Assembly (NCBI GenBank): GCA_025455005.1
Contig: JALONH010000003.1
Span: 1-64,000, forward strand
Direction: 5' to 3'
DNA from: Cytophagaceae bacterium
GTDB taxonomy: Bacteria; Bacteroidota; Bacteroidia; Cytophagales; Cytophagaceae
DNA length: 64,000 bases
Below, in pieces: positions 1,392 through 17,119 of the stretch. The notes beneath the pieces were generated by a model that was not told where the DNA came from, did not search any database, and was given only the letters and a program-made list of their open reading frames with translations. The position numbers and the translations under genes are program-made. Position 1 is the stretch's first letter, and the number at the start of each line of letters is the position of its first letter.

Positions 1392-2969
1392 TCAATATAT
1401 TACAGTAATGGTTATGGTTTTACTACTGTTAATTTTAATTAAATAATAATCTCCTACTATCTCACCACTCGAGCTAGTCCCATCCCAATACCCCGGCGTA
1501 GTTAATGTTTGGATAACTTTACCGGAACTATTATAAATAGTAGCAGTTCCGGCTTCTTCAATATAAATATGGTCGTTTATACCATCTCCGTCCGGTGTGA
1601 TAGCAAATCCTTTACAGTCGGATGGATTACCTTCTTTTCTTATAATAGTTATAGAAGAAAGAGTTCGGGTGCATCCGATATTATCCGTAATTTTTAAAGT
1701 ATATGTACCATCGCTTATCTCTTGGAATAATCCATTGCTAGATCTATAGGACAAACCGGAAAAGCTATTAGTAAGGGAATAGGTAAAAGGTCGAACACCT
1801 CCTACAATAGTAGATGGATTCACTTCCAATGTGCCTTTCCCATTACAAATAGCATCTGTTGTAACGTATTGAACATTCAAAATATTCATACAGGGATTTG
1901 TTACATTCAAAGTGTAAGCAAATGAAGTCAATGTAACAGTATAAAGTAAAGGTGAAGTATTTAACACGGAACAAGAATACGTGCCTCCATCATTAATATT
2001 TAATGGAGCTATTACAAAAATAGGGACGGATGTAGTATCAATCGGATTTCCGTTTTTATACCATATGTATCGATTGGATGTTACTCCGGCATCAATTCCT
2101 ACATCAATAATAAAAGAGGATAATTCTGGAAGAGATACTGTAGTTTCTATTCCTATCTTATTCTGTGGGGTATACGAAAAGATAGTATCAAAACCGGGAT
2201 AAGTAGTCAGTGGTAGTATATCTTCAAACGTTAAATTGGAATAGGTGATTTCAACTACGTCTAAATTAGGGAAAATAGAAAAATCAGGTAAAGAAGTATA
2301 GGTGTTATATCCACTGTATATTCGAACTAATTGATTGTTATTTGATATATTTGGATAAGTTGTAAAATTACATTTATAGAAATAAAGGTCTCTTAGATTA
2401 ACGAGGGTACTTAAATTAGGTAATTGGGATAAATGTACATTTTCTCCAACATGTAAGGAGACTAATTGAGTTAAAGAGGCTAGACTTGGTAATGTAGTTA
2501 ATAAATTTTTTTCTATATGCAATTCCCTCAAGTTAACGTTATTATCTAATGATGGAATGTTGGTTAATTTATTTTTCCCAAGATACAGTCGATATAATAA
2601 GGTTAAATTCGAAATGTCCGGAATACTACTGAGGTCATTATTAAAGGCTAAAATTTGAGTAAGTTTTGTAAGATTATCTAGTGGTGGAAGGTAATGAATG
2701 CGGTTGTCATAAATATCTAAAACAGTAGTGTTTTTGAAAAATTGTATACCATCTAAATTCTCAATACCATAATTAGGACAATTGATATTAGTTGTAATCG
2801 TTTCGGCTATATCTATACGTAAGCTATCATCGATATCTAGTACTTGAGGATAAGCCGCTTTTAAGTATCGAATAAAATTAACATCCGGTATAAAATACTT
2901 TTGAGCTAATAGAGTATAGTTAGCTAAGCAAATCAGTATTAAAGAATATATGCCTTTTTTTATTTTCAT
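1392..2969 (-). CDS. Secreted leucine-rich-repeat protein with SprB-like repeat and T9SS type B sorting domain
   Basis: Probable cell-surface or secreted binding protein exported by the type IX system. Order of parts in 525 residues: signal peptide (1-22, cut after LLAQ); leucine-rich repeats of the SDS22-like kind (about 80-245, units such as LTKLTQILAFNNDLSSIP); an Ig-like stretch with Cys333 (about 268-355); a SprB-type repeat (about 360-445, with DNIGCTRTLSS); and a gliding-motility-type C-terminal domain (about 455-525, beginning TPDGDGIND, with a WDGT motif). It is the last gene of a three-gene unit, three bases after the anti-sigma-like gene. Type B cargo normally needs a PorP/SprF partner, and one lies divergently at 4766. 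No catalytic motif is visible; its ligand is unknown. Confidence 0.88.
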   Translation of the reverse strand: MKIKKGIYSLILICLANYTLLAQKYFIPDVNFIRYLKAAYPQVLDIDDSLRIDIAETITTNINCPNYGIENLDGIQFFKNTTVLDIYDNRIHYLPPLDNLTKLTQILAFNNDLSSIPDISNLTLLYRLYLGKNKLTNIPSLDNNVNLRELHIEKNLLTTLPSLASLTQLVSLHVGENVHLSQLPNLSTLVNLRDLYFYKCNFTTYPNISNNNQLVRIYSGYNTYTSLPDFSIFPNLDVVEITYSNLTFEDILPLTTYPGFDTIFSYTPQNKIGIETTVSLPELSSFIIDVGIDAGVTSNRYIWYKNGNPIDTTSVPIFVIAPLNINDGGTYSCSVLNTSPLLYTVTLTSFAYTLNVTNPCMNILNVQYVTTDAICNGKGTLEVNPSTIVGGVRPFTYSLTNSFSGLSYRSSNGLFQEISDGTYTLKITDNIGCTRTLSSITIIRKEGNPSDCKGFAITPDGDGINDHIYIEEAGTATIYNSSGKVIQTLTTPGYWDGTSSSGEIVGDYYLIKINSSKTITITVIY

Positions 2970-2972
2970 ACT

Positions 2973-4064
2973 TTACATTACAATTGTTACATAACCTTCT
3001 ATGCTATTCCCATCTGAATATTCGATTAAAAAATAGTGAAGGCCAACTTCTGAATAATTATTATATAAGTCTTTCCCATCCCATGCTTCGGGTATACCGG
3101 AGGATGGGGTGGATTGAAATACTGTAGTCCCGGAACGGTTTAGTATCGTCACTCGTTTAATAGAGAAGTTTTCTATAGGGAATTTCCAAACTTCACCCTG
3201 CGATGGGTTGAAAATATATTCTTTAGTTCGAGAACAATTTTTACTGGAAACGGTGATGTTTTCCCTTTTCGATATACATCCGTTGTTATCTTTTACAACT
3301 ACTGAATATGTACTACTTTCTAAAAATACGAATGAAGATTTCGTTTGAAAGCTTTGACCGCCATCTCTAGAGTATTGATAGGGAGGATGACCACCTATAA
3401 TACTATGGATGTCAATACTTCCTGTGGCTTGATCCAAACAAGTAGCTTCTATTTTAGTGTCAAATAGAAGAGTAGTTAAACAAGGAGTCGGATTTTCTTT
3501 GCTCGTAATCGTTTCTTTTTCTTTTAATGGAAGTTCGGTTTCTTTATGAGTCGATGTAGTAGATTCAACTATAGGAGTATCTTCATTTAACACCTCGTTG
3601 TGTGAGGTTGAACGTGAATTATCTTTTGATCTGGATAGAAATCCAAACGTTGTATTTCTATTGTTATCGATTTCTTTAGTTGTTTTAGTAGATGGTTGAG
3701 TAGAAATATTCGGGATCGATGGTTGGGGTTTACTTTCTATTTTCAATACAGACAGCGAAGCCGGTTGGTCTGATTTTGTGGTCACTAAAACAATACTACC
3801 CACTAATCCTATGAACGTAATACCTCCTAATAGCCATCTAGTAAAATTAAATCTAGATGATTCAGAAGTATACTTTTGTATACTTTCTTTTGCTTGATGT
3901 AATCGGTTTTCTATTAGAAGTTGATGTGCTAATGCTTGCTTTTGAATCTGTTTTTTTAATAAAGGATGGACACGAATTTCTTGTTCAAATTTAGATAATT
4001 CATCAGGACTCAATCGACCTGAAAGGTATTGATCTATACGTTCATATATTTCGTTATCAGTCAT
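2973..4064 (-). CDS. Transmembrane anti-sigma-like protein with periplasmic SprB repeat and CHU_C-like domain
   Basis: Probable membrane-bound regulator of the ECF sigma factor encoded just upstream. The 363 residues show an acidic/basic cytoplasmic region (1-76, starting MTDNEIYERIDQYLSGRLSP, as in Bacteroidota anti-sigma proteins), one membrane helix (about 77-95), a Ser/Thr/Lys/Glu-rich linker (96-195), a SprB-type repeat (about 203-275, VVKDNNGCIS) and a domain closely resembling the type B T9SS sorting domain (about 282-363, with AWDGKDL and the ending EGYVTIVM). There is no cleavable signal peptide, so the C-terminal part should stay in the periplasm. Its ATG overlaps the sigma gene by 8 bases, which indicates coupled translation. 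The sensing role is inferred from architecture and position. Confidence 0.8.
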   Translation of the reverse strand: MTDNEIYERIDQYLSGRLSPDELSKFEQEIRVHPLLKKQIQKQALAHQLLIENRLHQAKESIQKYTSESSRFNFTRWLLGGITFIGLVGSIVLVTTKSDQPASLSVLKIESKPQPSIPNISTQPSTKTTKEIDNNRNTTFGFLSRSKDNSRSTSHNEVLNEDTPIVESTTSTHKETELPLKEKETITSKENPTPCLTTLLFDTKIEATCLDQATGSIDIHSIIGGHPPYQYSRDGGQSFQTKSSFVFLESSTYSVVVKDNNGCISKRENITVSSKNCSRTKEYIFNPSQGEVWKFPIENFSIKRVTILNRSGTTVFQSTPSSGIPEAWDGKDLYNNYSEVGLHYFLIEYSDGNSIEGYVTIVM

Positions 4065-4683
4065 TATTTCGAATCAATTGTTCAAAGTAAGTATTACCTT
4101 CTATTAGATTTATTAATTTATGTTTACAACGATAATGAGCTGTTTTCGCTGCATTTTCATTGCTTAAGTTCATTTTCTCCGCTATTTCTTTCATATTCAA
4201 TTTTTGAAAGAAAGTATACGTAAGTATTTCTAAACATTTATCACCAATATGAGAGAATACTTTTTTTATTTCTTCTGTTCTTTCATTATCCATTAACGTT
4301 TGAAGTATGTTGTCTTCTTGAATAATGTCCATTTCTTGATCCGGTTCTATCCGTATTATTCTATTCTTTTTCTTATAATAGTTAATCCAAAGATTTCTGC
4401 TAATAGTATATATAAACCCGTGTATTTTATATTTAGAAGCGTTAAACGATCCTTCTACTACTTGTTTGTAAAATATCATAAGAGCATCTTGAAAGATGTC
4501 CTTTGCTTCATCTTTACTCCCATTATTAGAACAAATTAAACGACTTACATTAGGTAGAATATCTTTATACAATAGAGGAATTACTCTATTGTCTTCTCCA
4601 TTAAGAATGGCAGATAGGATCTCCTGGTCGGATAATTTATTCACTATACCCACAATACAAGATTCAGATCGAAAAAGTAACAA
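4057..4683 (-). CDS. ECF-type RNA polymerase sigma factor
   Basis: Sigma-70 family, extracytoplasmic-function group. Region 2 lies around residues 30-100 (DEAKDIFQDALMIFYKQV is typical of region 2.2) and region 4 around 140-200 (LNMKEIAEKMNLSNENAAKT helix-turn-helix). The 208-residue frame starts at ATG 4683, but a promoter -7 box (TAAATTTG on the minus strand, 4689-4696) sits only 5 bases upstream of it. A downstream GTG at 4644 (VNKLSDQEIL) giving 195 residues is therefore the better start, although conservation would decide. First gene of the operon with the anti-sigma-like protein and the LRR cargo. Its likely targets are these genes and possibly neighbouring T9SS genes. Confidence 0.9.
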   Translation of the reverse strand: MLLFRSESCIVGIVNKLSDQEILSAILNGEDNRVIPLLYKDILPNVSRLICSNNGSKDEAKDIFQDALMIFYKQVVEGSFNASKYKIHGFIYTISRNLWINYYKKKNRIIRIEPDQEMDIIQEDNILQTLMDNERTEEIKKVFSHIGDKCLEILTYTFFQKLNMKEIAEKMNLSNENAAKTAHYRCKHKLINLIEGNTYFEQLIRNND

Positions 4684-4765: not shown

Positions 4766-5665
4766 ATGAATAGGAATTTACAGCCCCTTTTACCTGTGCT
4801 CATGAGCATATGGATAGGGTGTGGTGTTTCTTATTCATTGATGGGGCAAATCATTTATAGGTATCCCACTACCTATGGTCACTTTGTCACCACACCATTT
4901 CAAGTACACCCAGCCTATAATCTTTCCGATGCTAAGGCTCAAGTTACGATTGGAAATCAAGAGTTGGTCGGGCCTCTTCGAAGAATCAGAAGTTATTATT
5001 TTTTTGCCGGATGGTGTATGAATAACAACAAAGGAAACAATAAGAATTATATTGGAATTTTAGCTTCAAATGAGCGAGATGGGGAGTATATTGGTCGATC
5101 ACGTATTTGTTTTAATTATTCTTGGCATACAAAAATAAATTCAAAAATAGCATTGGGTGCAGGCGCCAACCTAGGATTAATAAGTTATGTGTTTGATGGA
5201 ACAGCGAGTACTGCAGGTGGGGGAGATATAGAACCGGATGCAGCATTGGGGTTTCTTATGTATAGTAAAAAATATAAAATTGGACTATCCGCCAATCAAG
5301 TTTTTGGAGCTCAAGTACAACCGATTATTAACACCTTTAAATTTCCGGTCTTTTATAATTTCTATACAGAATATAGTGTTTATATCACCCCGGACATAAC
5401 GATTCGACCTACTGTATTATTAGTTTACAAGTCGAAAGAACGATTAATAGAGTATAATATTGGACTTATGACACATATAATAGATAAGTTTAAAATAGGA
5501 CTTAATTATCGGCATCAACGTTGGCTCAGTGTTATAGTAGGAGTAGAAAATATTCGATTGGATAAACATTCTTTTAATTTTTTAATGGCATACAACCAAC
5601 CTACTTCCAATGCCGATTTTTATCAATCTATTGAGTTGTCTATAAGTTATTTATATAACAAGTAG
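4766..5665 (+). CDS. PorP/SprF family type IX secretion outer-membrane protein
   Basis: Outer-membrane beta-barrel of the PorP/SprF family, the proteins that work with type B T9SS cargo such as SprB. The 299 residues have a signal peptide (1-27, ending SLMGQ) and the family's hallmarks: an early segment with HPAYNLSDAKAQVTIG, conserved GPLRRIRSYY, and repeated beta-strands such as TINSKIALGAGANLGL and KYKIGLSANQVFG. It faces away from the sigma/anti-sigma/LRR operon across an 82-base gap and precedes the GH30 gene in the same direction by 78 bases. It may serve the LRR cargo or the large cargo at 8238. Family assignment is firm, cargo assignment is inferred. Confidence 0.87.
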   Translation: MNRNLQPLLPVLMSIWIGCGVSYSLMGQIIYRYPTTYGHFVTTPFQVHPAYNLSDAKAQVTIGNQELVGPLRRIRSYYFFAGWCMNNNKGNNKNYIGILASNERDGEYIGRSRICFNYSWHTKINSKIALGAGANLGLISYVFDGTASTAGGGDIEPDAALGFLMYSKKYKIGLSANQVFGAQVQPIINTFKFPVFYNFYTEYSVYITPDITIRPTVLLVYKSKERLIEYNIGLMTHIIDKFKIGLNYRHQRWLSVIVGVENIRLDKHSFNFLMAYNQPTSNADFYQSIELSISYLYNK

Positions 5666-5743
5666 CGATTTTTTTTAAATCGTGTTACTTTTTATTTGTT
5701 TCAGATGTATTGAGATTATATACTTAAAAAAAGCCTTTTTAAA

Positions 5744-8011
5744 ATGATGTTATCTACCAATAGAATTGTTTTTATACTTGTGTTTTTTTTAATAGGCACG
5801 TCTGTTTATAGCCAGAGCTTAACTATTCAATCAAGTGCTGCTGGACGAAGACAAATAATGGATGGATTTGGTACCTGTTTATCCGGAACAGAAGGACAAA
5901 GTGCTTGGATGCAAAATCTATACTATGATGATGCTATGTGTTCTATTCTTAGAATGGATCTAGTTCCTAGATTTATATCTCCTTACTCGGATAATTCCTA
6001 TAATTCTCCTTGGTTTCATAATAACCCCAGTTTACCCGGCCCTGACAATAATAATGTAAGAACCTACACAAATGCTACGGATTACTCTCGACTATTTAAT
6101 AATAGAAGAGCACCAATTGCAGTTATGGGGCCTGATATCAATGACAATATTACTAAGTATGATTTCAATAATACTATTCCTAAATCTGGAATAGAAATGG
6201 CACGAGCCGGTTACGCTAAACGAGGACAATTAGGTGACTTTAAGTTTTTTGGTTCTATCTGGTCCCCGGCTCCATGGTTAAAAATTTCTTCAGGTAATAC
6301 TTATGAAGGTGCTAATTGGCCGCTTCCAGTAGCCGGAACTCCTTTTCCGTTTATTTGGTTTGACAATTTCACGGGAGGGCGTTTAGATGTTTCAAATACG
6401 CCCCGAAGTGAATTTTTTGATGGAGTCGAAAATACGAGTGCTCTAACACAATTTGCTAGAGGAACGGCAGCTTATGTCAAAGGTATACAAGACAGGGCGG
6501 GCGTTCGTTTTTATGCCATCAGTATTCAAAATGAATTAAACTTTGAAACATTCTATAATAGCTGTACTTATCCTCTTTCAATACAATATATGATTGCTTT
6601 AAAAGCTGTTCGTGCAGAATTTGATAAATACCCTGATCTCAGAGATATAAAATTAATAGGTCCAGAAGATTTACTCGGAGATAATGCGTATGCTCTATGG
6701 CAATACGGTGGTGGATCTACAACCGTACATAAAAATTTACAATACTTAACCGAAATAGCGAAAGATGCGGATGCTCAAGACGCCATTGATTTCTATTGTA
6801 TTCACGGTTATGCAGCCGATGGGGTTAGTAGTGGTGGAGCAAATCCTGTCGTTTGGGATTGGTGGTCAAATGGTTGGACAACATCTCCTGCCCCAGGTAT
6901 CCCTTCAAATGTTAGAGGATTTACCTATTACAATAAGAAATCGTGGATGACAGAAACTTCCGGTGAAGATCAAGCATGGTTATATCCTACCTCCGGATTT
7001 CCTAACAATGGAGCCTATAGTATAGCGTTAAAGATGCATCAAGCCATAACAGCAGGTAATGAAAGCGCATGGATATATTGGCAGTTTACAGATGGGGGTA
7101 CTGTAGGTGCTTCTACTTTAACTGATGCTACAAGTTTAAACAATGCACCTAAACTGCATGCGTTTAGACATTTTTCAAAGTACATTAGACCCAATGCAGT
7201 AAGGTTGACTACAACAGTTTCCGGAACGAGTGATGTTGTATCCAGTGCCTATATTCATGATGCAAATAAATCATTAACTGTTGTGTTGATTAATACAAGT
7301 GCTTCGCCCAGAACTGTAACTGTGAATGTACCTACTTTACCTTTCACAATTACTCGTTTTGATACCTATACGTCTTCAAATGGAAGTTATTGGCAATCGA
7401 ATCCACTACTTATTACAGGTGGGACAGTATCAGTAACTATCCCTGGTTATGGAGTAACTACCTTATTTGCTGAAGAAAGTGCACCATTAGGTGTTGAGTC
7501 TATTCAAGTATTTGGTAAAAAAGTTGCCTCCGATGTACAATTAAAATGGATAGTGAGTGGAGAAAAAAATGTAGCCTATTATGATATCCAAAAAAGTTTT
7601 GATGGTATTACATTTTCTCCAGTTGAACGCGTAATAAGAACCGGTGTAGCATCTTATTCTGTTACATTAACTAATACTTTTGAAAATTATTTTAGAATAG
7701 CAGTAGTTGATGTAGATGGTACAACAGAGTATTCAAATATTTTATATGTTTCTGATTTCAATTCTTCTTTTGTTCAAGTATTTCCGAATCCATCCTCCAC
7801 CGACTTATTTATTACGATTAATAGCATTTCTTCAAAAGAAGACTATACTATCGATATTCTAAATAGTTTAGGTCAGGTGGTACGATCTATATACATTGAA
7901 GAAAATAGTTATAAACTATCTGTAAGTGATCTTCCGAGTGGTATGTATACTATTGTATGTAAGAGTCCGTACACTCTTGTAGGTAGTCAACGTGTAATTA
8001 TAAGTCATTAG
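5744..8011 (+). CDS. Secreted GH30 glycoside hydrolase (glucuronoxylanase-like) with T9SS type A domain
   Basis: Extracellular glycosidase of clan GH-A, family 30, most like glucuronoxylan endo-beta-1,4-xylanases, though beta-1,6-galactanases and -glucanases share the fold. In 755 residues: signal peptide (1-24), TIM barrel (about 35-475) with the GH30 segment IWSPAPWLK, acid/base Glu264 in ISIQNE and nucleophile Glu404 in WMTETSGE; a beta-sandwich (about 480-578) normal for GH30; a fibronectin-like linker (about 583-670); and a type A T9SS sorting domain (about 676-755, starting VQVFPNPSS, ending RVIISH). It lies between a PorP/SprF gene and the giant protein gene; a GH10 xylanase downstream supports a xylan substrate. 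Subfamily is not certain. Confidence 0.88.
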   Translation: MMLSTNRIVFILVFFLIGTSVYSQSLTIQSSAAGRRQIMDGFGTCLSGTEGQSAWMQNLYYDDAMCSILRMDLVPRFISPYSDNSYNSPWFHNNPSLPGPDNNNVRTYTNATDYSRLFNNRRAPIAVMGPDINDNITKYDFNNTIPKSGIEMARAGYAKRGQLGDFKFFGSIWSPAPWLKISSGNTYEGANWPLPVAGTPFPFIWFDNFTGGRLDVSNTPRSEFFDGVENTSALTQFARGTAAYVKGIQDRAGVRFYAISIQNELNFETFYNSCTYPLSIQYMIALKAVRAEFDKYPDLRDIKLIGPEDLLGDNAYALWQYGGGSTTVHKNLQYLTEIAKDADAQDAIDFYCIHGYAADGVSSGGANPVVWDWWSNGWTTSPAPGIPSNVRGFTYYNKKSWMTETSGEDQAWLYPTSGFPNNGAYSIALKMHQAITAGNESAWIYWQFTDGGTVGASTLTDATSLNNAPKLHAFRHFSKYIRPNAVRLTTTVSGTSDVVSSAYIHDANKSLTVVLINTSASPRTVTVNVPTLPFTITRFDTYTSSNGSYWQSNPLLITGGTVSVTIPGYGVTTLFAEESAPLGVESIQVFGKKVASDVQLKWIVSGEKNVAYYDIQKSFDGITFSPVERVIRTGVASYSVTLTNTFENYFRIAVVDVDGTTEYSNILYVSDFNSSFVQVFPNPSSTDLFITINSISSKEDYTIDILNSLGQVVRSIYIEENSYKLSVSDLPSGMYTIVCKSPYTLVGSQRVIISH

Positions 8012-8112: not shown

Positions 8113-8237
8113 AGGATTCTTTTAAGAGTATAAAATTTTATTAAAATATTTAAATAGTTGTTACTTTCTGAGCAACATATATGTATTGACTTTATATAGA
8201 AGCACAATATTAATCAACTTATACTATCAATTATATA

Positions 8238-11200
8238 ATGAGAACTAAAATTATACTATTTCTTTTCAGCTTTTATGTGAGTCTTAATCCATCGTATAGC
8301 CAAACCTGTACACCCACATCTGTTCCCTATCCAAATATGGGAATCAATTTAGGAGAGTTTCCTTGGATAAACTTATATCATCAAATGAATCCTTCTCATT
8401 CCGGTTTTAACAATGGGTTTGAATTAGGTGTGGATGGATGGCCAATCGATGGTAGAGAACATAGAATTGTTATAGGTCATGATGCTAGTATTTTGATTGG
8501 AATACCAGCGGGAAGTATTATAAAAGTAAGTTATAAAGGAACCTTAAATCAATTTTTCGAGTCAGACGGCAATACAACCATAGTTCCGGGCAGATCAATT
8601 CAAGATTATCCAAGTGTAGGGTATGCTTATCATGAAGTCAGAGTAACCAATGCAATAGTACCTAGAGAAGAGACCGGTATTCATGGAATTTATGCTTTTA
8701 ATTTTAGAGGTCACGTAGAAGATGTGAAATTTATGCGTCCTGGATTTGAGATAGACGAACCAAGAGTAATACATCCACAATTTTCAGATTTGTTGAAAGC
8801 CTATTCTACTCTACGTTTTATGGCGTTTACAAATACGAATTCTCAATATGCATCTTCAGAGTATGATTGTAATGCACCTAGTATATTAAATTGGTCTGAT
8901 AGAACTAATCCTAATGCACCTCAATCATTCACAAAAGGTAAAGGAGGGGCTTGGGAATATGTAGTGCAAATTGCAAACGAATTAAATAAAGATATTTTTA
9001 TTAATATACCTGTTAATGCGTCGGATGATTATGTCCGCGGTTTATCTAGATTGTTGTTAAATAATTTAAAACCTGGATTAAATGTGAATTTTGAAATGGG
9101 TAATGAATTATGGAATTCAGCGGGAGGATTCTGTGGATTTCGAGATGTATATAGAAAGTGTGGTGACGATTGGGCTTGTCATCAACGTTGGCCTGCAAAT
9201 CGTATGAAAGAAGTAATTGATATCATTGCAGCAGATTGGGGTTGGCATGAAATCAATAATAGAATACGAGGTGTATTGTGTGGACAAATCGCTTATGCTG
9301 CCGATGGTCATGGATGGAATATCAAAGAAGGTCTTAATCATTTAGAAAACACATATGGACAAGGTACTGTAAAAAAATACTTATATGCGGTAGGCGCAGC
9401 CCCTTATTTTGGTCCTGCAAATCATGATTTTTCTTCTGTTGAATCTATAATAAGTCAAAGTGCAATAAATATAAATGATGAAATATTTGGTGAGTTCAGT
9501 GATGAATATCATAGAGATAGTGATCAATATATGGGTAATAAATTAGAAGGGTGGTTTGGAGAAGCGGGTCAATATGGGTTGAAGATGTATGCTTATGAGG
9601 GGGGACCAGATATGGATTATACAACAGGTAGCGGAGGTGTAAAAAATATTGCCATGCAAGATCCTAGAATGAGAGAATTGTGCTTAACCTATTGGAGAAA
9701 ATGGTATGCTCGTTATGGAAGTGACGCCTTATTTTGTTTTTTCTTAGCTAATTTCAACGAAAGTGGATTATATACATTAAGTGAAAATATTAGTATTACT
9801 AGTACAAGACAGGATGCAATGAATGAAATAATGTCAAATCCTTCTCCTGATTTTGATATTTCTGTTCGTAATATTATACCGGGAATAGTAGATGCAAGAA
9901 AAGTTTCCGCTTATTGGTCTAGATGGAATCAATCCCCAGCATTGCAGTATCTAAGACCTGGAGGAAGCAATAAATGGACTATTGCTGCTGAAAAAAATGG
10001 TACATATCAATTAGCAATCGAGCATAGAACTGTACAAAATTCTTTAATTGATATATATGTGGATGGAGAGCGTGTTCATACAGATTTAGTATTACCACAC
10101 ACCACAACAGCTCCAAATGATTGGGCTTTTGCATCTTGGAGATATACAGATGCACAAAATGTAACGATTGATTTAGATATATCTTATGGTGTTCATGTAA
10201 TCAAAATAGTTTACAAAGGACAAACGGAAGATAACTTCAGAAATTTGAAATTTACATTAGTGGGAGAAACGCCTCCTTTTCAACCTCAGCCTATTATAGG
10301 TGGATTGGAAGTATGTCAAGGTAGTCCAAAAATAAATTATGCTACTACTCTTGACCGATCAGTATGCTCCTACCGGTGGACTTTAGATCCTACAGCAATA
10401 GCACAAGGTGCTACTATATTACCTTTCATTCAAGGTGGTCCTGGTAGATCAGCATCCGGTCAGGGATCGAATAACATAAATATTAACTGGGGGAATGTAC
10501 AACCGGGTACGTATACATTATCATTAGTAGGAGAGAATTTAGCTGGAAATAGTCCAGTAAGAACAGCTCAAATAACTATAAAAAAGTGTGGATTTACAAT
10601 TGCTTCTAATGCTACTTGCGTTAATGCTGATGTAGTAATAACTCCAGAAGATATTCCAAATGTCACCTCATGGTCTTGGGTTTTCGACAAAGGGGGTAAT
10701 TCTGCTACACCTAATATTTTTTCAGGTAGAACACCTCCACCTATCCAATATAATAGTTCTGGAATTAAATATGTAGAATTAAAAGTTGTAATAGAGGGAG
10801 AAACAAGAACGTTCACTAATACGGTAAACGTTATTCAGCCTAATTTTTCGGTTGTTAAAAATAATCCTTCCACTTGTCAAGGAAAAGGCTCTATAAGATT
10901 AACTAATTTATCTCCATCTGTTACTTATCAGGTAAATTATTCTAAGGACGGTGTTTCCATACCACAATTTAATATCTTATCCGATATTAATGGAACGATT
11001 ATTCTTGATGATTTATCTATTGGAAATTATTCTAATATCAGAGTAGCTTTTGGAACATGTTTGAAACTAGATCCTCAAGTATATGCTATTACAGTTCCGG
11101 ATGCCCCAAATTTTTCAACTTCTAAAGTTGATATATTAAATTGTGGAGGAACAGGTCTTATTACAATTTCCGGATTAGCGAATGCGACCGAGTATATGAT

Positions 11201-14042
11201 CTCGTATTCAAGAAACGGGACACCTAGTGCACCTATTGCACTGCTTAGTTCTACTTCTGGGCAAATTAGTATTACAACAACTTCCGGAGTATACACTCAG
11301 GTATCCGCATCAAGAAACGGATGTAGTAAAGTAGATGCTCAAACTTTCACTTTTACAGAACCAACACTAGCACCTTTTACGGTCGTGTCAACCCCTATCT
11401 CCGGTTGTGGTGGCTTTGGTAGTTTAACTATATCAAATGTATTGCCTTCTACTTCCTATGATGTATCCTATACAAAGGATGGCATAGCAACTACTCCTAT
11501 ACCTTTGACGAGTTCTACTACAGGCACTATTGTTATAAATAATTTATCAGCCGGTGTATATTCCATGGTTACCGTAGTTCAGAATAACTGTAGTCGTATA
11601 CATGAAGGTCGATTTGAATTTGTTAATCCTTCAGCGCCTACTTTTTCAGTAACATCAACAGACATTACTACCTGTGGCGGGTATGGTAATTTACTGTTAA
11701 GTGGATTAGCTCCTTCAACGGTATTTGGGATAAGTTATAGGAAAGATGGTGTAAGTATTCCCATGACCTCTTTCACCAGTAGTGCAGCCGGAATAGTAAC
11801 CATTCCTTCGCTCACCGCCGGATCTTATTCTCAACTTTCTGTAGACTATTTGGGTTGTAGTCGCACAGAGCCACAAACGTTTACTTTGTCCAATCCTTCT
11901 TTACCTACTTTCTCTGTTACAACAACGGAAATAGAGACCTGTGGTGGTGTAGGAACTATAGCCTTAAATGGATTATCAGCATCTAGTTTATATTCGATTA
12001 CATATTCTAAAGATGGTATTACGGTTCCAGCTGTAACTTTAACGAGTAGCACAACAGGTGAAATTCTCCTTACCAATAGGTCAGCGGGTTCATATTCACA
12101 ATTAACTGTAAGTACAAATGGTTGTTCTGCTATTGAACCACAAATCATTACTCTATCACAACCTTCATCTCCAAACTTTTCAGTTACTCAAGCCGATATT
12201 AATACATGTGGTGGAGTTGGTTTTATTTCTCTATCCGGACTTACAGCTGGAACAGTGTACACTATATCGTATACGAAAGACAATATGCCTTTACCGGCAA
12301 CTGATTTTGTTGCAAATCAAAATGGTGTAATCACCATGAATAATTTGTCTTCTGGAAATTATACTGCATTATCTTTAGCCCGATTAGGCTGTACTACTAT
12401 ACATCCTGAAGCCATTGTATTATTGGATAATTCTGCCTCAACAGGAGAGATCTGGTACGCTGATTCGGATGGAGATACCTATGGCAATCCAAGCCTTTCT
12501 CAACGGTCTTGTTCGCAACCTGTCGGATTTGTTATCAATGCGACAGATTGTAATGATACAGATGCTAGTATTAATCCATCAACGACATGGTATGCGGATA
12601 GTGATAATGATACTTTTGGAAATAGTACAGATGTGTTGACCGGGTGTGAAGCTCCTGCGGGTTATGTTAAAAATGCTACAGACTGCAACGACTCAGACGC
12701 TACCATTCATCCGGGTACGATCTGGTATGTGGATGAAGATGCAGATACTTATGGGAATCCAATACAATTTATTGTTTCCTGTACTGCGCCAACAGGTTAT
12801 GTTCGAAATAATATGGATTGTAACGATAGTGATAATTCTCTTCACCCTTCAACACTTTGGTATGCGGATGCTGATGGAGATAATTATGGTAATCCATTAT
12901 CTACTACTACAGGATGTAATCCACCTGCCGGATATGTAAGGGATAATAGTGATTGCAATGATACCGACGCCTATTTATTGCCAACAACCCTTTGGTATGC
13001 GGATAGGGATAATGATACGTATGGTGATCCAACTCAATCACGTATCAGTTGTACTGCTCCGATAGGTTATGTAAGAGACAAGACCGATTGTGATGATACG
13101 GATGCTCGTATAACACCACTTACCGTATGGTTCGCTGATAGCGATGGAGATGGTTTTGGTACTACTCAATCAACTCTTGTTGCATGTGCAAAACCTAATG
13201 GTTATGTACTCGATAATAGCGATTGTGATGATTTAGTTCCGGGTAAGACACCTCCTGTACTACCCGTTTTATTAACTACATTCAATACTGTATGTACTGA
13301 AACCAATACTACCATTGAAGTTTTATCTTCCGATTCTGATATAACTTGGATATGGACTGGAACCCCGGGAATCATTCAATCAACAGCATCATCCTCTGCA
13401 ATGGTAAAAAGTAGTACTTCCGGTACACATACTATAGAAGTACAAGCTAGAACGGGTTGTGGTTTAAGTCCTATACTCCCAATACCCATTACATTTAGCA
13501 CAGAACTTGCTACACCTTTACGTATTGATGGACCTACAGAGGTGTGCCCCAATTCACGTATGATGTATAGCACACCTACACTACCCGGTATACTATCGTA
13601 TTCGTGGACCGTACCTTCCGGTATTACCATACTTCAAGGTCAACATACAAATTCAATACAGGTGGAAACCGGTTCTACTGTTATACTTCCTAATACAATC
13701 TTTTTACAAGTGACCAATAGCTGTGGAACAAGTCAGCCAGTATCCATCAATCTTATTGATGGTAAGTGTGCTCAAGAGACTGTATTTATTCCTAATGTAT
13801 TTACACCAGGCTCTTCAGATGATAATGGAGTATGGACGATAGATGGAATTCAAGATTATCCGAATGCAGTTGTTCGTATAGTTAATCGTTGGGGTGCTGG
13901 GGTGTTTGAGTCTATTGGATATGAAAAACCATGGGACGGAACATTTAATGGTAAAACCTTGCCAACCGGTACCTATTATTATTCAATAGATTTAGGAAAT
14001 GGGACTAAACTCAAAACAGGATCTATAACAATAGTTTATTAA
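8238..14042 (+). CDS. Giant secreted multidomain protein: GH-A-like domain, CBM6-like domain, two repeat arrays, T9SS type B domain
   Basis: A 1934-residue surface protein. Parts: signal peptide (1-21); a domain with TIM-barrel glycosidase features (about 30-530), with a likely acid/base Glu290 in FEMGNELWN and likely nucleophile Glu454 in YAYEGGPD; a CBM6-like beta-sandwich (about 541-676); PKD/Ig-like modules (about 685-865); six repeats of 85-90 residues with TCGG-G and SAGSYS-type signatures (about 868-1398); six repeats of exactly 45 residues with WYADSDGD-TYG and DCNDTDA motifs, like the MopE-type putative metal-binding motif (1406-1675); two PKD-like modules; and a type B T9SS domain (about 1848-1934, with NVFTPGSSDDNG and PWDGTFNG). 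A PorP/SprF gene follows after 10 bases. Substrate is unknown; cellulose or xylan binding is likely from context. Confidence 0.85.
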   Translation: MRTKIILFLFSFYVSLNPSYSQTCTPTSVPYPNMGINLGEFPWINLYHQMNPSHSGFNNGFELGVDGWPIDGREHRIVIGHDASILIGIPAGSIIKVSYKGTLNQFFESDGNTTIVPGRSIQDYPSVGYAYHEVRVTNAIVPREETGIHGIYAFNFRGHVEDVKFMRPGFEIDEPRVIHPQFSDLLKAYSTLRFMAFTNTNSQYASSEYDCNAPSILNWSDRTNPNAPQSFTKGKGGAWEYVVQIANELNKDIFINIPVNASDDYVRGLSRLLLNNLKPGLNVNFEMGNELWNSAGGFCGFRDVYRKCGDDWACHQRWPANRMKEVIDIIAADWGWHEINNRIRGVLCGQIAYAADGHGWNIKEGLNHLENTYGQGTVKKYLYAVGAAPYFGPANHDFSSVESIISQSAININDEIFGEFSDEYHRDSDQYMGNKLEGWFGEAGQYGLKMYAYEGGPDMDYTTGSGGVKNIAMQDPRMRELCLTYWRKWYARYGSDALFCFFLANFNESGLYTLSENISITSTRQDAMNEIMSNPSPDFDISVRNIIPGIVDARKVSAYWSRWNQSPALQYLRPGGSNKWTIAAEKNGTYQLAIEHRTVQNSLIDIYVDGERVHTDLVLPHTTTAPNDWAFASWRYTDAQNVTIDLDISYGVHVIKIVYKGQTEDNFRNLKFTLVGETPPFQPQPIIGGLEVCQGSPKINYATTLDRSVCSYRWTLDPTAIAQGATILPFIQGGPGRSASGQGSNNININWGNVQPGTYTLSLVGENLAGNSPVRTAQITIKKCGFTIASNATCVNADVVITPEDIPNVTSWSWVFDKGGNSATPNIFSGRTPPPIQYNSSGIKYVELKVVIEGETRTFTNTVNVIQPNFSVVKNNPSTCQGKGSIRLTNLSPSVTYQVNYSKDGVSIPQFNILSDINGTIILDDLSIGNYSNIRVAFGTCLKLDPQVYAITVPDAPNFSTSKVDILNCGGTGLITISGLANATEYMISYSRNGTPSAPIALLSSTSGQISITTTSGVYTQVSASRNGCSKVDAQTFTFTEPTLAPFTVVSTPISGCGGFGSLTISNVLPSTSYDVSYTKDGIATTPIPLTSSTTGTIVINNLSAGVYSMVTVVQNNCSRIHEGRFEFVNPSAPTFSVTSTDITTCGGYGNLLLSGLAPSTVFGISYRKDGVSIPMTSFTSSAAGIVTIPSLTAGSYSQLSVDYLGCSRTEPQTFTLSNPSLPTFSVTTTEIETCGGVGTIALNGLSASSLYSITYSKDGITVPAVTLTSSTTGEILLTNRSAGSYSQLTVSTNGCSAIEPQIITLSQPSSPNFSVTQADINTCGGVGFISLSGLTAGTVYTISYTKDNMPLPATDFVANQNGVITMNNLSSGNYTALSLARLGCTTIHPEAIVLLDNSASTGEIWYADSDGDTYGNPSLSQRSCSQPVGFVINATDCNDTDASINPSTTWYADSDNDTFGNSTDVLTGCEAPAGYVKNATDCNDSDATIHPGTIWYVDEDADTYGNPIQFIVSCTAPTGYVRNNMDCNDSDNSLHPSTLWYADADGDNYGNPLSTTTGCNPPAGYVRDNSDCNDTDAYLLPTTLWYADRDNDTYGDPTQSRISCTAPIGYVRDKTDCDDTDARITPLTVWFADSDGDGFGTTQSTLVACAKPNGYVLDNSDCDDLVPGKTPPVLPVLLTTFNTVCTETNTTIEVLSSDSDITWIWTGTPGIIQSTASSSAMVKSSTSGTHTIEVQARTGCGLSPILPIPITFSTELATPLRIDGPTEVCPNSRMMYSTPTLPGILSYSWTVPSGITILQGQHTNSIQVETGSTVILPNTIFLQVTNSCGTSQPVSINLIDGKCAQETVFIPNVFTPGSSDDNGVWTIDGIQDYPNAVVRIVNRWGAGVFESIGYEKPWDGTFNGKTLPTGTYYYSIDLGNGTKLKTGSITIVY
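10839..12431 (+). repeat. Six tandem coding repeats of about 88 residues
   Basis: Inside the giant protein (residues about 868-1398). Each unit begins with FSV, carries TCGG-G-(I/L)-L-GL, ISY-KDG, SSTTG-I and an SAGSYS-type turn, and ends with a GCS element. The DNA copies are diverged, so this is old duplication. The units probably form a stalk of beta-sandwich modules that carries the N-terminal domains away from the membrane. Confidence 0.85.
12453..13262 (+). repeat. Six tandem 135-bp (45-residue) Asp-rich repeats
   Basis: Residues 1406-1675 of the giant protein. The first Trp of each unit falls at 1406, 1451, 1496, 1541, 1586 and 1631, with no length change. Each unit has W(Y/F)-(A/V)D-D-D-(Y/F)G, one mid-unit Cys, G(Y/F)V and DC(N/D)D-D. 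The Asp-rich loops suggest calcium binding, by likeness to thrombospondin type 3 and MopE-type motifs. Confidence 0.88.
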
Positions 14043-14052
14043 AAGTTTAAAA

Positions 14053-15048
14053 ATGATTTACACTATGAAAATAGGTACTCAACATCTGTTACAAAAATTA
14101 GTTATTCTAATTTGTATGGGTATAGCAAAAAATCTATTCGCTCAACAACGTGCTCAATATAGTCAGTACATGACCAATAATTATTTATTAAATCCGGCTG
14201 TAGCCGGAACTACTGACCACTACGATGTACGATTGGGATATAGAACACAGTGGACCGGAATGGAAGATGCACCTCGCACTTTTTACTTAACCGGACAATT
14301 ACATTTAGGCAAACATATTGGCCCTTATGCAGGGAGAAGTAGACATGAACCTCAAAACCACCATGGGTTGGGTATTATGTTAGTGAATGATGTTACGGGA
14401 CCATTACGTCGTACTTCCACTTATTTAACCTATTCCTATGTAATGAAACTAACTAAGACACTAAAATTATCAGTAGGAGCAAACATAGGATACCAACAAC
14501 TCATACTGGATGGTTCTAAAGTTATCATGAAAACATATAATAGTAACGTAAGCAATGGATTTACTGCAGGAACTATGGATGGTGCTTTAGGGGTGTGGTT
14601 GTATGATAAAAAATGGTATGCCGGAGCTAGTGTGCAGCAAATATTTCAAAATAAAGTTTTTTTTAATGATTATGTGGCTGGAGCAGAAGCCTATAAATTT
14701 ACTAACCATTATTTCTTAACAGGCGGTTTAAAAATCGATTTGAATCAGGATTGGTATTTACTTCCTTCTTTTATGGTCAAGTATGCTCATCCGGCTCCTA
14801 CTTCTATTGATATTAACTGTAAAACCAGATGGAGAAATCTGGTATGGTTGGGTACTTCATACAGAACGAATGGATCAGTAGTCATGATAGGAGGTCTAAC
14901 GATATCGAATAGGATGGAGGTATTTTATTCGTATGATTATGTATTTGGAAAAAATCTGGCAGTCACTGGGTACGGAAGCCATGAAATTTCTATAGCCATT
15001 AAACCAAATCCTAAGGGTAGGGTCTATTCACCATCCGATTTCTGGTAG
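14053..15048 (+). CDS. PorP/SprF family type IX secretion outer-membrane protein
   Basis: Second PorP/SprF-family protein in the window, 331 residues (327 if ATG 14065, MKIGTQ, is used, which gives the better signal peptide). Features: signal peptide ending LFAQ, then the family signature QYSQYMTNNYLLNPAVAGTT, GYRTQWTGMEDAPRTFYLT, and a late GTSYRTNGSVVMIGG strand. This is the classical form of the family, closer to PorP/SprF consensus than the protein at 4766. It starts 10 bases after the giant type B cargo gene, the same arrangement as sprB-sprF, so it most likely supports export or surface anchoring of that cargo. The GH10 gene follows after 25 bases, probably in the same transcript. Confidence 0.92.
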   Translation: MIYTMKIGTQHLLQKLVILICMGIAKNLFAQQRAQYSQYMTNNYLLNPAVAGTTDHYDVRLGYRTQWTGMEDAPRTFYLTGQLHLGKHIGPYAGRSRHEPQNHHGLGIMLVNDVTGPLRRTSTYLTYSYVMKLTKTLKLSVGANIGYQQLILDGSKVIMKTYNSNVSNGFTAGTMDGALGVWLYDKKWYAGASVQQIFQNKVFFNDYVAGAEAYKFTNHYFLTGGLKIDLNQDWYLLPSFMVKYAHPAPTSIDINCKTRWRNLVWLGTSYRTNGSVVMIGGLTISNRMEVFYSYDYVFGKNLAVTGYGSHEISIAIKPNPKGRVYSPSDFW

Positions 15049-15073: not shown

Positions 15074-17119
15074 ATGAAAATTAATCATCGCATTTATAAG
15101 TGTTCCATAATTTTAGGTTTTATATGCTTATTATGTATAAAATTAAATGCTCAAATTCCACCTGGTGGAGTAAATATAATTTCACCCATAGAAAATAATT
15201 ATTCCTTTTGGGATAATTCAGGAACTGGGTCTATCCAACTTGTTCAAGTAAGCGGTCAATCTTTTACATCTGCTTTACAAATTACCACGATTGGAAGGCC
15301 AAATGAAACTTGGCTACAACAAACTACTTTTACAGAAATTGGAGGGATTGAGAATGGCGATGTAGTATTATATACTTTTTGGGGTAGGGTACAACAAACT
15401 AATAATGAGTCTGGTGCTGGATTTGCTATGGCTGTCGTTGAAAATGCTAGTGATTATTCTAAAGAACTTTTTACTCCTATTACGTTATCGAATCAATGGC
15501 AGGAATTATATGTCTCGTTTCAAGCTGTTCAAAACTTAACTGCAGCACAATTAAATATCGCTTTGCATACCGGATATGCTAACCAAACTATTCAAATTGC
15601 TCAACTACAAGTAATAAATTATAAAAAAACAAGATTATTGAGTGAAATGCCTAAAAACATAATCTCCTATGAAGGTCGAGATTTAAATGCTGAATGGCGA
15701 ATTTCAGCTAATCAGAGAATTGATCAATTTAGAAAAGGAGATTTAAATGTTATAGTAAATAACTTTTCAGGAAGCCCTTTAGTTGGGGCTGATGTTTGTA
15801 TTAAAATGTTGGATCATTCTTTCGGTTTTGGAACAGCAATTAATGCACATGAATTTGAAAATAATACCCAATATAGAGACACTGCTTTAGCATTATTTAA
15901 TCAATTTACGATTGAAAATGATATGAAATGGTGGTTGTATGTATACCCTACAGAAAAGGCTAGATCTAGAAGAATAGTTGATTATTTATTATCGAAAGGC
16001 AAACAAGTAAGAGGTCATAATATAATATGGCCATCTTTTAGTACAGGATATAGTCCATCATTTTTATTGAATTATAGAAACAATGCAGATAGTTTACGAT
16101 TCTATATTAATCAACATATTGATGATATAGTAACAGAGTTTAAAGGAGACCTTGTAGACTGGGATGTAATTAATGAGCCTAATGCTAATACAGATTATAT
16201 GAATGTGTTAGGTTTCGATGAAATGGCCCGTTGGTATAATCGAACCCATCAAATAGATTCAAATGTGAAATTGTTTGTTAACGATTATTCCATACTTGAG
16301 GCAGGAGGTGTAGATTATGCGAAACAAGATGCATATTATTCTAATATTAGTAGAATAATAAATGATGGGGGACATTTAGATGGTATTGGAATTCAAGGTC
16401 ATTTTTCGACTCAATTAACTCCAATAAATCGTTTGTATGAAATTTTAGATCGGTTTTCTACTTTTCAAAAAGAAATTAAAATTACTGAATTTGATATTAA
16501 TATTAGAGATCAATGGCAAGTACAAGCAGATTATACAAGAGACTTTATGACATTGGTATTCAGCCATCCCTCTGTAACCTCTTTTTTAATGTGGGGGTTT
16601 TGGGAAAATGCACATTGGATTCCAGATGCAGCTATGTACTCAGCACAATGGTCTCCCAAACCTAATTTAATTGAATATAAAAAATTGGTTTTTGATACAT
16701 GGTGGACGAAAGAATTGTGTAGATATACCAACACTAATGGAACTTTTAACCCTGAAAGAGTTTTTTTAGGAAAATACGAAATAGAAGTAGATTTTAATGG
16801 AATTATTAGAAAGGATACAATTGATATAATTAATAATACTTTACTAAATACAATTACTTTTAATCTTCCAACGACTGTAACTTCAACTACAGAGGTTCAA
16901 AATAAAAATATTTCAGTTTATCCTAATCCATCATCTACTTCCTTTGTTATCGAATGTAGTCAGAATCTATATAATGAAGTTGAAGTATATACTACCTCAG
17001 GAATTTTAATAAATAAAGAAAAAATCATCAATAGCCAGTTTACTTTTGGGGAAAATCTACCATGCGGTATTTATTTCCTTAAAGTAAATAATGAACATAT
17101 ACGAATAGTTAAACTGTAA
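15074..17119 (+). CDS. Secreted GH10 endo-beta-1,4-xylanase with N-terminal CBM and T9SS type A domain
   Basis: Endo-xylanase hydrolysing internal beta-1,4 bonds of xylan outside the cell. In 681 residues: signal peptide (1-26, ending LNAQ); a carbohydrate-binding beta-sandwich of the CBM4/9/22 kind (about 30-185); GH10 TIM barrel (about 235-545) with acid/base Glu368 in DWDVINEPN and nucleophile Glu472 in KITEFDI, also HNIIWP and GIGIQGHF, which are family hallmarks; a short linker; and a type A T9SS sorting domain (about 612-681, starting ISVYPNPSS). It sits between a PorP/SprF gene and the beta-helix protein, spacing 25 and 19 bases, so is likely part of one transcript. Family and activity are well supported; the CBM family is not. 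Confidence 0.94.
   Translation: MKINHRIYKCSIILGFICLLCIKLNAQIPPGGVNIISPIENNYSFWDNSGTGSIQLVQVSGQSFTSALQITTIGRPNETWLQQTTFTEIGGIENGDVVLYTFWGRVQQTNNESGAGFAMAVVENASDYSKELFTPITLSNQWQELYVSFQAVQNLTAAQLNIALHTGYANQTIQIAQLQVINYKKTRLLSEMPKNIISYEGRDLNAEWRISANQRIDQFRKGDLNVIVNNFSGSPLVGADVCIKMLDHSFGFGTAINAHEFENNTQYRDTALALFNQFTIENDMKWWLYVYPTEKARSRRIVDYLLSKGKQVRGHNIIWPSFSTGYSPSFLLNYRNNADSLRFYINQHIDDIVTEFKGDLVDWDVINEPNANTDYMNVLGFDEMARWYNRTHQIDSNVKLFVNDYSILEAGGVDYAKQDAYYSNISRIINDGGHLDGIGIQGHFSTQLTPINRLYEILDRFSTFQKEIKITEFDINIRDQWQVQADYTRDFMTLVFSHPSVTSFLMWGFWENAHWIPDAAMYSAQWSPKPNLIEYKKLVFDTWWTKELCRYTNTNGTFNPERVFLGKYEIEVDFNGIIRKDTIDIINNTLLNTITFNLPTTVTSTTEVQNKNISVYPNPSSTSFVIECSQNLYNEVEVYTTSGILINKEKIINSQFTFGENLPCGIYFLKVNNEHIRIVKL

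Follow-up and report, generated by a model that had tools for sequence, protein, structure and literature searches.

The anti-sigma factors of cell-surface signalling are in contact with barrels of the outer membrane and are regulated proteolytically (PMC11637429). The FecI-FecR-FecA and FoxI-FoxR-FoxA systems consist of an ECF sigma factor, an inner-membrane anti-sigma factor with a C-terminal periplasmic domain, and an outer-membrane barrel partner that is encoded alongside (PMC11637429, PMC9249621). The Dma anti-sigma factors, found only in Bacteroidota, span from the cytosol to the outer membrane with a cytosolic anti-sigma domain, one helix, a long disordered tether, and an outer-membrane-directed C-terminus, and are encoded adjacent to their sigma factor (PMC13088901). 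In the T9SS, type B C-terminal domains (CTDs) bind cognate PorP/SprF proteins, whose genes are co-inherited as for SprB-SprF and PG1035-PorP (PMC9143113, PMC12618676), and type B cargo, once at the surface, remains bound to the carrier of this family that is its own (PMC9143113, PMC12635249). SprF is tied to the gliding track through a disulfide between the Cys-X-Cys motif of its C-tail and GldK (PMC12635249). In F. johnsoniae, secretion of SprB required each of its five conserved type B motifs (PMC12618676). For type A, in the case that has been solved, contact between CTD and carrier loops takes place inside the SprA pore (PMC10994853). A CTD-bearing protein, PorA, feeds into the ECF sigma factor SigP of P. 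gingivalis, but PorA is secreted and acts through the two-component system PorXY and is not fused to an anti-sigma factor (PMC7712824). The control of polysaccharide utilisation by ECF/anti-sigma pairs in Bacteroidota has been reviewed (PMC10766802), and a cellulose ECF sigma factor of C. hutchinsonii is known (Wang et al. 2019, cited in PMC12016534).

The window analysed here (64,000 nucleotides of a Cytophagaceae bacterium, positions 1 to 64,000 of contig JALONH010000003.1) encodes a module of four genes that, by its predicted architecture, would work like FecA-FecR-FecI and Dma but belongs to neither, because it has no FecR domain, no TonB signalling receptor, and no C-terminal barrel. It shares with the Fec and Fox systems the ECF sigma factor, the predicted inner-membrane anti-sigma factor with a C-terminal periplasmic domain, and the barrel encoded alongside. 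However, a FecR domain was not matched in the window anti-sigma at E<=1 (Pfam, NCBIfam), and the window locus contains no TonB-dependent receptor with an N-terminal signalling domain, the barrel there being of the PorP/SprF family (a TonB receptor is found near a few other modules). The module has a carrier of the T9SS as its barrel, and the presumed contact domain is related to T9SS sorting domains. The likeness to Dma covers the anti-sigma domain, the helix, the disordered tether, the presumed direction of the C-terminus towards the outer membrane, the neighbouring sigma gene, and the restriction to Bacteroidota. Dma proteins pair with ECF21 sigma factors and end in their own beta-barrel, whereas the window anti-sigma has no C-terminal beta-barrel but two small beta domains with SprB/CHU_C matches, the last of them type B-like and soluble; the barrel of the module is a distinct PorP/SprF protein from a neighbouring gene, accompanied by an LRR cargo. 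With SprB-SprF and PG1035-PorP the module has in common the CTD framework and the co-inherited PorP/SprF gene, and its LRR partner resembles ordinary type B cargo, but the anti-sigma itself lacks both a cleavable signal and the PNGDGxND loop. The ECF sigma factors known to control polysaccharide genes come from the same bacterial group, but have been described with SusC/D or other outer-membrane proteins and not with PorP/SprF. The nearest published links are those of PorA to SigP and the Dma family. In agreement with the original prediction, which knew of no such sensor, neither an anti-sigma factor with a T9SS sorting domain nor a sigma-PorP/SprF module is described in the literature searched (preprints and most subscription journals excluded).

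The anti-sigma protein is composed of the following parts:

2973..4064, minus strand: anti-sigma protein with T9SS type B-like tail, 363 aa (ORF, Pfam, homologues, AlphaFold2)
3867..4064, minus strand: residues 1-66, predicted cytosolic anti-sigma domain (AlphaFold2; the N-terminus recurs behind sigma genes order-wide)
3777..3836, minus strand: residues ~77-96, single membrane helix with the N-terminus presumably inside (helix position, K/R bias)
3459..3776, minus strand: residues ~97-202, low-complexity linker (homologue alignment; pLDDT <50)
3228..3458, minus strand: residues ~203-279, SprB-like beta domain (Pfam, homologues, AlphaFold2)
2976..3227, minus strand: residues ~280-363, C-terminal domain of CHU_C / type B-like character that lacks PNGDGxND (Pfam, motif count, fold search)

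AlphaFold2 gave a poor model from the single sequence (pLDDT 48). With six homologues it placed helices at residues 3-14, 20-32, 34-69, and 78-92 and two beta domains at 203-271 and 281-361, the second mostly with a pLDDT of 70-87, while residues 69-215 stayed below 50. In 67 of the 92 homologues, K/R residues are more numerous on the N-terminal side of the helix than on its C-terminal side. The N-terminal helical domain, the one membrane helix, and the adjacent sigma gene (the next gene upstream of all 61 homologues, in most cases overlapping by 4 bases) characterise the protein as a predicted membrane-bound ECF anti-sigma factor, as had been proposed from the sequence of the locus. The linker of ~105 residues is rich in S/T/K/E/N/P; its span is kept at 98-132 aa in 60/61 homologues while its sequence drifts and is unconserved.

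The tail is type B-like, with marginal scores for the single protein and a firm signal at the level of the family. Pfam CHU_C (PF13585) matches residues 291-361 with 27.2 bits against a cut-off of 27 and covers positions 16-86 of the 86 in the profile, leaving unmatched the initial 15, where the PNGDG loop is placed; Pfam SprB at residues 207-236 reaches 24.3 bits, under the cut-off of 28, and TIGR04131 (NCBIfam) is not matched at E<=1. Among 33 diverse homologues, CHU_C is found in 29 and SprB in 16 at E<=0.01, which agrees with the SprB-type repeat and type B-like domain that had been predicted, and the family model recovers full-length copies at E 1e-50 to 1e-110, far past chance. The cysteines C195, C209, C263, and C277 are conserved in >90% of the homologues. 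A sequence search of the PDB gave nothing useful. In the fold comparison suggested with the original prediction, PorU (6za2; Z 7.9, 159 residues, rmsd 11.1) and the PorZ CTD (5m11; Z 7.8, 79 residues, rmsd 2.7) are both among the top six matches, but tied with unrelated Ig folds, and the glycan-binding SGBP-B and unrelated Ig-like domains score similarly. The modelled fold thus agrees with a T9SS CTD, yet is not singled out as one.

The 92 tails follow the consensus F-N-P-x-x-G-E-x-W ... W-n-G ... G-l-Y-i-Y-x-I-e-Y-x-d-G ... G-x-I-T-I and, beyond the first loop, retain the type B framework. PNGDGxND is present in 0/92 of them, compared to a P-N/D-G-D/N loop in 55/69 of the operon cargoes. The membrane helix is internal and follows the cytosolic domain, unlike a cleavable Sec signal, and a site resembling a cleavable one (A-x-A-Q-like, Q-rule) is found at its end in just 2/92 homologues, in line with the predicted lack of a cleavable signal. 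The protein carries a divergent type B domain but, with this signal and PNGDGxND both missing, differs from ordinary T9SS cargo. Given that the SprB motifs are needed for secretion and that PNGDGxND is absent, the tail may look like cargo yet be no full export signal.

The other three genes surround that of the anti-sigma factor:

4057..4644, minus strand: ECF sigma factor, translated probably from GTG 4644; its gene overlaps the beginning of the anti-sigma gene (Sigma70_r2, TIGR02937)
1392..2969, minus strand: LRR-Ig-SprB-CTD protein, predicted surface type B cargo (signal peptide TLLA^Q; TPDGDGIND present)
4766..5665, plus strand: PorP/SprF-family outer-membrane barrel, 299 aa, divergent from sigma (PF11751, conserved linkage, co-divergence)

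The sigma factor matches Sigma70_r2 (2e-7) and TIGR02937 (2e-17), TIGR02985 being below its cut-off (59.6 vs 126); it probably starts at GTG 4644, because a longer ORF from TTG (4057-4683) would contain the promoter. CHU_C in the LRR protein is below the cut-off (21.3 bits), and the protein can be aligned with the anti-sigma over residues 193-355 of the latter (28%, E 1e-6). The claim that both proteins share their two last modules holds on account of the CHU_C domain of the LRR protein and this alignment. The PorP protein matches PF11751 with E 2e-24 (86.8 bits, cut-off 22.3) and TIGR03519 with 77 bits, below 90.6.

This arrangement is conserved. PorP/SprF is encoded within three genes of 60/61 homologues, normally divergently, the exception lying at a contig edge, and in 48/61 a CTD-bearing protein of usually ~540 aa, mostly LRR-Ig-(SprB)-CTD, follows the anti-sigma by a few bases. 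In modules without this downstream cargo the CTD protein is usually on the other side. At least three gene orders are known, in which the parts stay together and the SprB or CTD part of the anti-sigma may be absent. PorP is followed by sigma and anti-sigma with divergent cargo in L057, L072, L074, and L165, and L155-L157 have sigma, anti-sigma, cargo, and PorP in one operon, the anti-sigma with CTD and without SprB. In L192 the anti-sigma (7255-7995) ends after SprB, in an operon of sigma, anti-sigma, type B cargo, and PorP; the CTD is therefore not absolutely required for module cohesion. L224 has the tail and neither PorP nor cargo nearby.

As control, the order Cytophagales was searched with the N-terminal domain alone, which added 40 loci and resulted in 135 anti-sigmas with sigma directly upstream. 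PorP is within three genes of 89/92 anti-sigmas with tail and 5/43 without (Fisher p 1.6e-24, merely a guide because the rows are related by kinship, although the contrast is still near-complete), and a CTD cargo within four genes of 85/92 and 4/43, respectively. The link to the T9SS that the original prediction had drawn is supported. Four of the five PorP-positive controls are split or cut-off copies of the family (L183, L186-L188) and the fifth is the SprB-only L192. PorP itself is rare in the source genome (13 matches). None of 62 module PorPs has the Cys-X-Cys of the SprF C-tail, which makes a place of these proteins on the gliding track improbable. The same anti-sigma N-terminus was also seen behind ECF sigma genes in five large proteins of 734-928 aa without CTD (L226 7275-10061, L135 6980-9589, L193 7541-9745, L195 5245-7488, L202 2376-4676). 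Another anti-sigma, ~280 aa long (L102 1189-2052, L191 7619-8458), agrees with the family in N-terminus and linker and differs in its C-terminal domain; in both loci the next gene encodes an FtsX-like membrane protein.

Mirror-tree correlations are moderate, inflated by shared ancestry, and based on related modules that are not independent. Read with this limit, the CTD-PorP distance correlation is 0.43 in 62 complete modules after removal of the sigma and anti-sigma-domain distances, and 0.50 in 34 dereplicated modules (partial correlation, permutation p 0.001). The corresponding partial correlations are -0.03 for the CTD with sigma and 0.15 for the CTD of the secreted cargo with PorP. The co-divergence of tail and PorP thus fits a docking of the tail on PorP, short of proof.

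In Cytophagales, 92 homologues with this tail make up the family; a genome has 1-11 of them, and an ECF sigma gene lies immediately upstream of every one. The family is found in 15/19 sampled genomes of the window's own family and in certain genera that belong to three or four further families, and Cytophaga aurantiaca DSM 3654 is among the species. The source genome (2.94 Mb, 99.6% complete) has two further full-length copies (C4, C28), each behind a sigma gene, and thus three, while relatives reach 11. The fusion next to ECF sigma genes, for which a search in other Bacteroidota had been suggested, was found in numbers within the order, but a thin phylum-wide sample (395 genomes, five candidates scored per genome) had full-length copies only in the source genome. 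One family alignment (A3) used as query yielded nine loci, and a search with the SprB-less L131 protein, run without a positive control, was empty. The idea of a transfer to another order was abandoned because the "Chitinophagaceae" record L131 shares its contig with G017, a genome of the window's own family. A relative with a single-contig genome (4,433,218 bp) has five copies; the cellulose sigma gene of C. hutchinsonii (chu_3097) is presumably near 3.6 Mb and, if this is the genome concerned, away from the five module positions. Two modules stand in tandem inside about 7 kb in L166 (691-6548). In G018 three anti-sigma genes are split into an ORF for the anti-sigma domain and one for SprB/CTD (L186 8211-9339, L187 ~9709-10068, L188 ~8797-9907), which could be a sequencing error or a genuine decay of the tether.

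The sigma operon shares its promoter sequence with neighbouring genes:

4653..4681, minus strand: ECF-type promoter of the sigma operon, GTTACTTTTT-N12-TGTATTG (genome-wide motif search)
5684..5712, plus strand: identical promoter ahead of the GH30 gene; there is no third exact match in the genome of 2.94 Mb
8160..8188, plus strand: promoter with one mismatch before the gene at 8238, the sole such site in the motif search
5744..8011, plus strand: predicted regulon member, a GH30-like glycosidase that ends in a type A T9SS tail (GH30C match just below cut-off)
8238..14042, plus strand: secreted protein of 1934 aa with canonical type B tail, predicted regulon member (CHU_C 75 bits; starts a tight operon)
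14053..15048, plus strand: second PorP/SprF-family protein, by position the putative carrier of the 1934-aa protein (family match, operon position)
15074..17119, plus strand: GH10 xylanase with type A T9SS tail, operon of the 8238 gene (domain matches)
17139..18899, plus strand: 586-aa protein with type A T9SS tail, operon of the 8238 gene (domain matches)

The motif GTTACTTTTT-N11-13-TGTATT has two exact matches genome-wide, those before sigma and GH30, and the reversed control gives none; three sites with two mismatches are elsewhere in the source genome. The PorP gene of the window (4766-5665) does not have a promoter site of the sigma/GH30 type. GTT(T)ACTTT precedes sigma in 36/92 modules (1.0 expected) and in 7/38 controls (0.5 expected). 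Module-specific promoter versions are found before neighbours in L038, L045/L046, L057/L072, L071, L162, L182, L185, and others. In L038 the box CGTAGTA is present in both promoters and the neighbour has 893 aa; the L057/L072 version precedes the cargo, that of L071 precedes two genes, one of them a pectinesterase, and those of L162, L182, and L185 are shared with a pectate lyase, a GH43, and a GH5 gene, respectively. The GH9 gene of L060 has no promoter match to its module. A blind test of shared promoters in 25 modules ranked the PorP-side target first in 8 (3.9 expected). This is only mildly positive, so that the regulon claim is based on the window together with a small number of clear pairs.

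Enzymes next to the modules include GH5, GH9, GH10, GH18, GH26, GH30, GH43, RGL11, pectate/alginate lyases, and CBM6/35 proteins, and the source-genome paralogue on C4 (L037) adjoins a rhamnogalacturonan lyase. The nearest large ORF is polysaccharide-degrading or -binding in roughly 20 of 35 scanned modules, compared to one secreted GH8 and three alpha-amylases in ten controls (1/10 secreted, 4/10 any glycosidase), a comparison that controls the CAZyme bias imperfectly. Some modules adjoin a histidine kinase, a TonB receptor, or a sortilin-like protein rather than an enzyme. In one genus a PAS/histidine-kinase protein is encoded beside the module (L051 11624-14755; orthologues in L059, L061, and L067), which hints at two-component cross-talk. 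The CAZyme cluster, the divergent PorP/SprF gene, the absence of PNGDGxND from the tail, and the shared promoter all go beyond the original prediction.

We think it rather probable that the module performs cell-surface signalling, in which the anti-sigma factor docks on its own PorP/SprF carrier that it shares with the surface LRR protein. The N-terminal domain would keep the ECF sigma factor bound at the inner membrane, helix and linker would bridge the periplasm, and the SprB/CTD tail would dock on the outer-membrane PorP/SprF protein of the module. Export by the T9SS, whose translocon SprA is present, would bring the LRR-Ig protein encoded in the sigma operon to the same barrel, on which it would be anchored and its LRR could meet polysaccharide or a surface. 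Binding of this presumed ligand, or the arrival of the LRR protein at the barrel or its loss from it, would alter the hold on the anti-sigma tail, and the anti-sigma would then be cleaved or shifted and release the sigma factor. The freed sigma factor would drive its own operon and the neighbouring genes of T9SS-secreted polysaccharide-degrading enzymes, in the window the GH30 gene and the operon of the type B giant, PorP, and GH10.

Because the type A CTD binds within the SprA pore, the tail might meet PorP only in the translocon or be exported, rather than dock from the periplasmic side. The tail may stay tethered in the periplasm, but may also be captured at the outer membrane or pass through it. 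More generally, we tentatively suggest that a sorting domain of the T9SS has been converted to signal transduction, with a sigma-bound chain captured by or exported with its cognate outer-membrane carrier in parallel, substrate-specific copies. In the version with export, the T9SS translocon would take up the tail and bring it out on PorP/SprF, with the N-terminus still bound to sigma in the cytosol, and the protein would span both membranes and sense the outside directly. The anatomy known from Dma, the constrained length of the drifting linker, and the preserved type B framework apart from the first loop would be consistent with this. However, the loop common in the cargoes is missing from every tail, all five motifs of SprB were necessary for its secretion (PMC12618676), and a chain anchored in the inner membrane is expected to block SprA, and thus we regard this version, although it is the main alternative, as unlikely.

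The original prediction was a cargo mimic that gauges T9SS load or the occupancy of the translocon and adjusts sigma activity. A type B-like tail without cleavable signal could indeed compete with cargo for the carrier, and in P. gingivalis SigP signalling is affected by PorA, which bears a CTD (PMC7712824). But genomes have several paralogues (3 copies in the source genome and up to 11 in relatives), each with a private PorP/SprF, cargo, and promoter variant and often with a CAZyme neighbour that differs between them, which argues for several specific surface signals rather than one meter of secretion traffic, and the strongest promoter matches lie before genes that encode enzymes and cargo. 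General load measurement is hence quite improbable. Even less probable, in our view, is that the tail is an Ig-like periplasmic sensor that binds an oligosaccharide itself and has PorP and cargo nearby only for reasons of expression. The CAZyme neighbours and the similar fold scores of SGBP-B and unrelated Ig-like domains would suit such a sensor, but the linkage to PorP depends on the tail and persists through changes of gene order, and the tail co-diverges with PorP and not with sigma.

If signalling through the shared carrier is correct, the many parallel modules would allow substrate-specific sensing of insoluble polysaccharides at the surface of Cytophagales with no soluble inducer being imported. 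For gliding degraders of cellulose and pectin, which face polymers too large for entry, the module would be a concrete and testable path from the surface to transcription. The sigma regulons and cognate pairs are predicted in cultivable species such as C. aurantiaca, and the PorP/SprF carriers of the T9SS may gain a second role as signal receptors.
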